Assembly: GCF_009931615.1 (NCBI RefSeq)
Contig: NZ_CP046620.1
Span: forward strand, 3,146,501-3,210,500
Direction of reading: 5' to 3'
DNA: 64,000 bases
DNA from: Algicella marina
GTDB lineage: Bacteria > Pseudomonadota > Alphaproteobacteria > Rhodobacterales > Rhodobacteraceae
The translations under genes were made by a program, and so were the position numbers. The notes under the pieces are model-generated. The model had not been told where the DNA came from. It made no database searches and worked only from the letters and a program-made list of their open reading frames with translations. Of the stretch, positions 46,566 through 61,604 are shown in pieces (within the stretch, counting starts at the first letter, position 1; each line of letters opens with the position of its first letter).

Positions 46566-46756
46566 ATGTTTCGACCCGACAGGAACGTCGGTCGCGCCCG
46601 GCTTCGGTCAAATAGGGTGTGGAACGTTGTGCACCGTTGAGTCGGTGCCGCATTTTCTGAATCTTCAGTCGGGCGCGTCAAGCAATACTGACCTAAACGT
46701 CAAGCATTTCTGACCCAGACCAGACTTTGACTGCGACCAATCCAAGGATCTGGTCG
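46566..46756. repeat. 191-bp direct repeat, copy A
   Basis: Begins ATGTTTCGACCCGACAGG and ends GGATCTGGTCG. It matches 47497-47688 with four substitutions and one single-base indel by eye (about 97% identity), offset 931 bases. The two copies flank the orphan gene at 46951-47451. No open frame is kept in both copies, so it is not a simple gene duplication. Confidence 0.9.
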
Positions 46757-46950
46757 CGGACTTTGCTGACCTTCCCGGATACAACTCGAATGTCGGCTAA
46801 CAGTGTCCAGTTCGGAAGGTCTGTTGGATCGCAAGGAAACCAGTTAAACCATGTTCCCAGCTTTCAGGCCGTTTTCTTCTTGGCAGTGAGATATTTGATT
46901 ACGCGCGGTTTGAGAGCGCTCGACAGAAATCGCGTCAGTGGATTGGCCAA

Positions 46951-47451
46951 ATGACTCACGAAACAAAAAATTCATTCTCAAGAACAAATCGAAATTTGGT
47001 TCGGTATGTAGTATTTCCAGTCGCGGTACTGGCGTCGGCGGCCCTCATTGTTTGGTCGGCAGCCAGCTATTGGTGGTTTGACAGATATACGACAACATTC
47101 GTGGTCACCGCCCCGATTGACGTCATGTCGAATTGCACATGGGAGATAATCCAAAGTGGTTATGGCGACCCTGTTGCCAAGTTACCGGCATTCAACTGGG
47201 CGACATTCAAATGCGGTCTCGTCAAAACAGACGCCGGTTACTTCGCGCTTCCACAGAGCGGACATAGTTTGGTTCGCGACACTCGATCGGCGATGTTGGA
47301 AAGGCTCCAACAAGGTAAAAGCTATCACGCGGTTTATCATTCTCCCCAGCATGTGCCAGATCGTGACGGAAAGTTCGTAGGGAAAGACGGACAAATTAGG
47401 CTGGCGTCTCCGCCTCCTACTCTTCTTCGGCTTCTTGAAAGCTCTGAGTAG
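46951..47451 (+). CDS. Orphan membrane-anchored protein between direct repeats
   Basis: 166 residues. One N-terminal transmembrane helix (VVFPVAVLASAALIVWSA) and a periplasmic domain with two Cys (NCTWEII, FKCGLV). No family recognised. Base composition is lower in GC than the flanking operons. Lying between two copies of a 191-bp repeat, it may have come in with the repeated segment. Confidence 0.65.
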   Translation: MTHETKNSFSRTNRNLVRYVVFPVAVLASAALIVWSAASYWWFDRYTTTFVVTAPIDVMSNCTWEIIQSGYGDPVAKLPAFNWATFKCGLVKTDAGYFALPQSGHSLVRDTRSAMLERLQQGKSYHAVYHSPQHVPDRDGKFVGKDGQIRLASPPPTLLRLLESSE

Positions 47452-47862
47452 TTCTTGGTCAGAACAAGCGCCCCGATACGTAAACGGCTTTCGGTCATGT
47501 TTCGACCCGACAGGAACGTCGGTCGTGCCCGGCTTCGGTCAAATAGGGTGTGGAACGTTGTGCACCGTTGAGACGATGCCGCATTTTTCTGAATCTTCAG
47601 TCGGGCGCGTCAAGCAATACAGACCTAAACGTCAAGCATTTCTGACCCAGACCAGACTTTGACTGCGACCAATCCAAGGATCTGGTCGAGGACAAAGCTG
47701 CCTGCAAATCCAAACACTCGAAATTCTGCTTTGATCTATTCGGGCTTAGGGATGCTTTGGTGGGGCGTGGAGCCTTTGGCAAAACTCGGATAGATTTACC
47801 GGGCGGGTCGGTTGCACGGTCGCCGGCCAACATCGACATCAAACAGTATTTTCGGAGAAATC
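47452..47862. other. 411-bp intergenic stretch
   Basis: Mostly repeat copy B (47497-47688). The plus frame through copy B reads into a 75-codon open frame (47435-47662) that is broken in copy A, so I do not call it. Between 47689 and 47862 lies the upstream region of the TetR gene, with no clear palindrome. Confidence 0.5.
47497..47688. repeat. 191-bp direct repeat, copy B
   Basis: Second copy of the repeat at 46566-46756; 192 bases because of one extra T in the run before CTGAATCTTCAG. After the shared end (GGTCG) the two copies diverge within a few bases (CGGACTTTGC in A, AGGACAAAGC in B). Confidence 0.9.

Positions 47863-61517: not shown

Positions 61518-61604
<87 letters not shown>

Follow-up and report, generated by a model that had tools for sequence, protein, structure and literature searches.

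The Direct Repeat and the Gene between Its Copies

What is represented by two nearly identical copies of a 191-bp sequence that stand on both sides of one orphan gene in the genome of Algicella marina? The locus was studied within a stretch of 64,000 nucleotides, analysed as a whole and called here the window. According to the original prediction, the segment may be a composite remnant, a duplication formed during integration or a cassette that can be lost by recombination.

The direct repeat itself, predicted at about 97% identity and an offset of 931 bases, was confirmed by alignment: the copies occupy positions 46566–46761 and 47497–47693 and agree in 191 of 197 columns, the differences being five substitutions and one 1-nt insertion, with a start-to-start spacing of 931, or 932 past the indel. 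The enclosed gene of different composition was also found as predicted. Only one plausible gene lies in the 735 bp between the copies, and the G+C content of this stretch (50.1%) is lower in just one of 1266 windows of the same size, which overlaps the stretch itself. In the whole 3.99-Mb genome, the search for the repeat proposed in the original prediction gave two strong copies, namely these; beyond the pair, the genome holds two weak remnants resembling a transposon left end and one right end. A 17-mer motif of the repeat has five matches in the window versus 0.07 expected in shuffled sequences, four within the two copies and one elsewhere with 2 mismatches.

The product of the orphan gene belongs to no family in PADLOC, PHROGs or NCBIfam, and Pfam gave a sub-threshold match only (CcmH, E 0.072). 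The gene had no tblastn match in 72,556 plasmids; in 147 genomes, its own included, it matched, besides itself, a single sequence weakly (E 8.6e-4, 24% identity, internal stop).

The coordinates of the features are collected in Table 1. A wider segment of low G+C content, which also contains an MFS transporter gene as well as TetR and hydrolase genes, is possibly the whole array to which the repeat pair belongs. Outer left and right ends and a target duplication around this segment were searched for with the end profiles described below, and none was found. No tRNA gene adjoins the repeat array, the only one in the window being tRNA-Leu at 61518. As for an empty site, mtgA is kept in relatives, with gltB beside it wherever the locus extended that far, but the window genes beyond mtgA were not found there, and no empty site was obtained.

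Table 1. Features of the repeat region, in window coordinates
Feature	Position	Strand	Remarks
Low-G+C segment	45000..49600		54.9% G+C versus 61.8% in the rest of the window; presumed, approximate extent
Putative right end of the neighbouring element	46566..46612		47 bp, common to both copies; degenerate or divergent
TAGGG, putative 5-bp spacer or target duplication	46613..46617		same in both copies
Left end 1	46618..46801	+	tip TGTGGAACGTT..., ~184 bp; nhmmer 7.5e-42 on excised copy
Putative transposase-binding site	46677..46693	+	GTCAAGCAATACTGACC; binding suggested by the architecture
Putative transposase-binding site	46699..46715	+	GTCAAGCATTTCTGACC; 22 bp from the previous site; well conserved block in 20 copies
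Orphan gene	46951..47451	+	166 aa, one N-terminal hydrophobic stretch, low G+C; presumed cargo of mini-element 1
Putative right end of mini-element 1	47497..47543		the 47 bp in their second copy, from the repeat alignment
TAGGG spacer, second copy	47544..47548		from the repeat alignment
Left end 2	47549..47735	+	tip TGTGGAACGTT..., ~187 bp; nhmmer 3.5e-39 on excised copy
Putative binding site	47609..47625	+	GTCAAGCAATACAGACC; 17-mer motif match
Putative binding site	47631..47647	+	GTCAAGCATTTCTGACC; 17-mer motif match

Left Ends of a Tn7-like Transposon Family

The rightmost ~145–190 bp of each repeat copy represent, as judged from sequence, a left end belonging to a family of Tn7-like transposons. 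Both copies have a TGT tip and several sites of ~20 bp, as the left ends of Tn7-like transposons do. The alignment of 20 copies has a sharp left edge at TGTGGAACGTC and a well conserved block, in which two motifs of 17 bp are spaced by 22 bp. The original prediction had found no transposase, terminal inverted repeats or target duplication. No transposase was recognised in the annotated parts of the 64-kb window here either; what the prediction overlooked is that the repeat itself is a transposon end.

When 147 relatives, a number that includes the own genome, were searched with the repeat by BLAST, nine other genomes showed partial and diverged matches (71–96% identity), the two weakest of which are at chance level; further matches were found in plasmids of Phaeobacter, Yoonia and Tritonibacter. 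The search in related strains, likewise proposed earlier, was extended with a first, sequence-only profile of the left end, built from 20 copies (including the two window copies and rows from 7 other matched genomes), and with at most 8 candidates scored per genome it matched 46 of 394 genomes of the family, the own one included, at E ≤ 1e-4. In a collection of 84,980 genomes, 49 stretches contain an exact 20-mer of the repeat, 45 of them assigned to Rhodobacterales by record titles; none of the viral contigs searched contains it. One contig carrying this left end (L084/L046) is labelled Enemella evansiae, an actinobacterial name, and the record is probably mislabelled or contaminated.

A profile made for nhmmer from 27 other copies, with both window copies left out, matches the A. 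marina left ends from the tip to +184 and +187, respectively, that is, past the stretch of 97% identity. The two copies keep this identity to +144 and then fall to ~52–57%, still being left-end-like. Such a drop with persisting family similarity suggests recombination or conversion at the ends after insertion.

The two remnants elsewhere in the genome are decayed and left-end-like (C1:917,629-917,707, L067, and 3,856,571-3,856,656, L068; E 9e-6 and 5e-5). An RNA gene was also considered for the repeat and rejected, the four Rfam matches (E 2.1–4.4) being all far below the gathering scores.

Right Ends, Junctions and Target Duplications in Relatives

In relatives, the DNA to the left of the TGTGG tips is either unrelated from place to place or one of a few conserved sequences. 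Read from their own tips inward, these conserved sequences mostly begin with TGTTGAACGTCA... or similar letters and contain repeated motifs. They are right ends, fall into four classes (A–D) and abut the left-end tips. The survey of ends covered 99 sequences and kept 89 left-end and 68 right-end tips. A match was excluded if it began past position 20 of the left-end model, which removed 5 of 94, or past position 8 of a right-end model, which removed 0 of 68. Each place had one representative; L007, L008, L036–L040, L043, L046, L049, L051, L060, L061, L066, L072, L088, L090 and L160 were set aside as duplicates or as contained in longer pieces.

Forty junctions of abutting tips were obtained, 38 of a right end with a left end and 2 of other combinations of ends. 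The gap between the tips is 5 bp in 25 of them, 6 bp in seven, 4 bp in four, 7 bp in three and 8 bp in one; these counts include related junctions, for example, those of Tritonibacter strains, with no correction for common descent, and the right-end profiles were built from junctions among the 40, which therefore match by construction.

The 5-bp flanks played no part in the placement of tips. Perfect 5-bp target duplications were found in 8 of 17 left/right pairs versus 1 of 272 cross-pairs, and at least four of five flanking bases match in 9 of 17 versus 4 of 272. Four of the nine imperfect pairs come from the arrays of Phaeobacter porticola and P. gallaeciensis, where a simple duplication rule need not hold; the other five, L041, L048 (4 of 5), L053, L065 and L202, simply lack it. 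Some of the counted pairs have weak right ends (L053 and L062, 8e-3; L017, 2e-3). In the two-element array of P. gallaeciensis (L021), AGCGC is common to both outer ends, a case outside the count of eight.

Nine of the 68 right-end tips, at 8 distinct places, lie 9–10 bp past the 3' end of a tRNA gene. At seven of these places the gene is tRNA-Arg(ACG), the right end being weak in one case (L155); at the eighth, in the genome of A. marina itself, it is tRNA-Lys(UUU). Most of the 68 tips have no neighbouring tRNA, many of them through the abutment of another element, and only 1 of 89 left-end tips is near one, at 22 bp from tRNA-Asp (L058). The A. marina site at C1:3,364,914 (L212, position 915) is a clear class-A-like right end 9 bp past tRNA-Lys(UUU), and no convincing left end partnering it was found in the 19.9 kb examined.

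On visual comparison, classes A, C and D of the right ends (L118 4350–4450, L106 5560–5620 and L156 540–600) are alike in their inner sequence and differ in their tips, which suggests that end tips may be exchanged between families.

Autonomous Relatives with tns Genes

Two relatives carry TnsA-TnsB-TnsC-TniQ genes between such ends. In Aliiroseovarius zhejiangensis (G454 contig 7; L198, L172), the order is tRNA-Arg(ACG), 4 bp, CCAAT, a class-A right end, TnsA, TnsB, TnsC/TniB, TniQ, further DNA, the family left end, CCAAT again and the next class-A right end, with 20,426 bp from tip to tip. Pfam gives the domains rve and Mu-transpos_C for its TnsB and recognises TniB as well as TniQ; TnsA is below the Pfam cut-off (E 0.0053) and clear in the related L156 operon (8.5e-8). 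On contig 20 of A. sediminis (G470), a family left end stands at 134,719 directly after AGGAT, and the tns operon lies at ~154–159 kb. A class-C right end extends to about 168,831, and past it come AGGAT, 4 bp and tRNA-Arg(ACG). The AGGAT match holds if the right-end tip is placed one base outside the profile edge; this element, whose contig was examined outside 137–150 kb, stands outside the count of 17. It had been ascribed to a sister family, an assignment dropped since it is bounded by the A. marina left-end family and by AGGAT on both sides. A sister family is represented by the tns element of G186 contig 7, with a class-C right end, a class-C-like other end and ACCCT on both sides; L152 and L156 contain tns operons whose ends were not both assigned.

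These operons bear on a first guess about the repeat, according to which its tandem 22-bp TGACC motifs would be IstA-type terminal repeats of the IS21 family. Termini of IS21 also have repeated TTGACCC motifs, as read in the letters of the IS21 copy near the P. porticola array, but that copy (L020) has different ends of its own on the same reading, and two elements bounded by the A. marina-type left end carry tns genes. Given the right ends, the target duplications and the tns operons, the guess was dropped, and we consider it extremely improbable.

TniQ and TnsB gave no match in the A. marina genome in either search. The search for TniQ took 34 of the 46 left-end genomes, and that for TnsB used 43 of the 49 loci L070–L118 as handles, covering 41 genomes, in 30 of which the query had matches. 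An apparent ORF common to 12 loci was rejected as probably non-coding sequence adjoining right ends; among these loci, L089 and L072 gave TniQ matches and L118 a TnsC match.

Mini-Elements, Their Cargo and Tandem Arrays

Besides the 20.4-kb element, the counted pairs (n = 16) delimit units of 681 to 4,028 bp with cargo. A search of every one of the 17 counted elements for tns genes found them in that of A. zhejiangensis only; the short loci favoured short elements, and larger units would have been missed in them. In a genome of the same genus as A. marina (G002, L017), a 1,575-bp element has a perfect CCTGA on both sides and a cargo of two ORFs, one of which we take to be RidA-like and the other to resemble WYL-type regulators. 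Other cargo includes a candidate defence gene, DUF3644/PDC-S19 (L044 and L021), a pentapeptide-repeat protein (L020) and two acetyltransferase-like ORFs, judged from sequence by eye (L062). On contig 4 of G186 (L153 170–12451), a left-end/right-end junction separates a weakly NACHT-like protein from SMODS cyclase and E1-E2 (CBASS-like) genes with TniQ.

The best model for the A. marina repeat pair is P. porticola. Its two junctions, each consisting of a right end, a spacer and a left end, form a direct repeat of 191 nt with 97% identity and a spacing of 1364, enclosing a hypothetical gene and a small HTH_35 regulator gene, and a third right end lies beyond, 9 bp from tRNA-Arg. The HTH_35 gene is related to that of A. 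zhejiangensis (55.6% identity, 63 aa, E 2e-15); in tns-bearing elements such a gene is situated before tnsA, and in the second P. porticola mini-element it is frameshifted. The retention of this gene points to an origin of the P. porticola mini-elements by internal deletion of Tn7-like parents. An IS21 element with an apparently interrupted istA (L020 1937–4400) was observed 200–300 bp outside these junctions.

Arrangements of the A. marina kind, with two copies, occur in P. porticola, P. gallaeciensis, Loktanella and the genome G370. As its refutation, the original prediction had named a conserved arrangement of two copies in distant relatives, pointing to a functional element; judged by this, the occurrence does argue for a functional element.

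Arrays of units with one or a few genes, parted by a repeat (L021, L020), might also be taken for integron-like gene cassettes with attC-type sites. Yet no conserved single-strand fold was found in the 20 aligned copies (−0.26 kcal/mol, 3 pairs), and relatives have 5-bp target duplications, so that the probability of this reading is, in our opinion, close to nil.

The Nature of the A. marina Unit

In our opinion, each 191-bp copy is probably a head-to-tail junction of two elements of the Tn7-like family, and the orphan gene is the cargo of a mini-element. The junction would consist of ~47 bp of a right end, 5 bp of duplicated target and ~145 bp or more of a left end, and the mini-element between the copies would extend from 46618 to ~47543 (926 bp). 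Such arrays could arise from the insertion of a TnsABC-TniQ element beside an attachment site, with duplication of 5 bp, if later elements of the same or a sister family insert alongside, repeated insertion beside an earlier element thus giving right-end/5-bp/left-end junctions; internal deletions would leave mini-elements made of the two ends with a cargo of one or a few genes.

The 47-bp stretch to the left of each tip is the weakest part of this scheme. The 52 bp left of the A. marina tip correspond in size and position to a right end with a 5-bp spacer, and the shared stretch left of the tip is 55 bp in P. porticola and 56 bp in G370. To the right of the tip, the extents in the three pairs differ (~144, 136 and 96 bp, respectively), which speaks against the scheme. 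TAGGG stands before both A. marina left ends, and no outer right end was found for comparison with it. Profiles of right-end classes A–D gave no match to the 47 bp, and among 1000 shuffled sequences its alignment score was reached by 198 for class A, 39 for B, 799 for C and 82 for D. In 394 genomes, the stretch has no standout homologue (31 other genomes at E ≤ 0.01, the best, L011, at 2e-4), and L011 was rejected as a chance-like BLAST match lying inside apparent coding sequence. Since the sequence is unrecognised despite its matching size and position, we infer a divergent or decayed right end. In G370 contig 3 (L214, 4238 and 4710, reverse complement), a "flank plus left end" is duplicated with a unit of 472 bp, and the 56-bp left flank shared by this pair contains no recognised right end.

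These data should be weighed against a solitary left-end remnant, the right end of which was lost, with the 47-bp flank and the left end copied later to both sides of the gene. Recombination, RecA-mediated or illegitimate, would have made the copies, for example, through integration of a circle with the gene and the repeat. The lack of a recognised right-end sequence in the 47 bp fits such a course, as do the similar shared flank of the G370 pair and the sharp break of identity on both sides with left-end homology running on. The three pairs are, however, nearly equal in extent on the left (52–56 bp from the tip), and in P. porticola the counterpart of the stretch is a right end, a third solo copy of which stands beside a tRNA gene. 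We regard the remnant as unlikely and prefer the junction of two elements.

A duplication formed at integration, one of the possibilities in the original prediction, is contradicted by the nature of the repeat as a conserved transposon end common to many Rhodobacterales. An accidental segmental duplication, at the integration of DNA belonging to no specific element, would agree with the orphan gene and with TniQ and TnsB not being found in the A. marina genome, but the widespread end with its target duplications in relatives makes it highly improbable. The composite remnant and the cassette come closer, as the gene does have transposon ends on both sides and the region is foreign in composition.

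Returning to the junction of two elements, the A. marina region most likely belongs to a tandem array, the mini-elements of which have no transposase. It is plausible that the mini-element could be moved by a transposase supplied in trans; at present it is probably immobile because TnsB and TniQ were not found in the genome. It is also plausible that the gene could be lost if the 191-bp copies recombined homologously with each other.

Comparison with Known Systems

Tn7-like transposons, their cargo and the targeting of tRNA genes with TnsD/TniQ selectors are already known (PMC8649781, PMC10293859 and PMC11406308). Tn7 and tRNA-targeting Tn7-like transposons (PMC11406308 and PMC10293859) share with the autonomous relatives the genes TnsA, TnsB, TnsC and TniQ, end repeats of ~20–22 bp, the 5-bp target duplication, the position of the right end upstream of the tns operon and, at some places, a fixed distance downstream of a tRNA gene. 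This distance is 9–10 bp in the relatives versus 30–33 nt reported for one I-D CAST (PMC10293859). The cargo islands of Tn7-like transposons (PMC8649781) include the same kind of accessory and defence cargo, represented here by SMODS and E1-E2 (G186) and PDC-S19/DUF3644 (L044, L021). The survey in that paper delimits transposons, whereas the units counted here are 0.7–4 kb long, free of tns genes and often tandem, A. zhejiangensis excepted.

The A. marina unit differs from Tn7-like transposons in having no tns genes, a one-gene cargo, an unrecognised right end and no adjacent tRNA. It is a derived, non-autonomous relative rather than a Tn7-like transposon proper, as no tns genes (TniQ/TnsB) were found.

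MITEs and other non-autonomous elements have ends with no transposase of their own, are presumably moved in trans and possess short symmetric inverted repeats. The mini-elements resemble them in the transposase-less ends and differ in having asymmetric ends of the Tn7 type and a real cargo gene. Integron cassettes are small head-to-tail units parted by a repeat, attC; the stacking is alike, but the mini-elements have transposon ends with 5-bp duplications and no attC-like fold. Among the matches listed in literature searches, titles and the openings of abstracts describe no such mini-elements or arrays in Rhodobacterales.

Conclusions

Recognition based on transposases easily misses units that have ends and cargo but no transposase. 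An end profile finds them directly and provides a practical way to delimit small cargo units in a major group of marine bacteria, and the units so delimited include candidate phage-defence genes. Tentatively, and with more doubt than confidence, one may imagine a roseobacter counterpart of the integron based on a transposase, in which mini-elements with Tn7-type ends and one or a few genes, stacked head to tail at common sites, would be moved in trans by TnsABC-TniQ elements located elsewhere in the population, and orphan or defence genes, that of A. marina included, would circulate as interchangeable cassettes. Should the mini-elements indeed be mobile in trans, the assembly of cassette arrays would be the work of Tn7-like systems.
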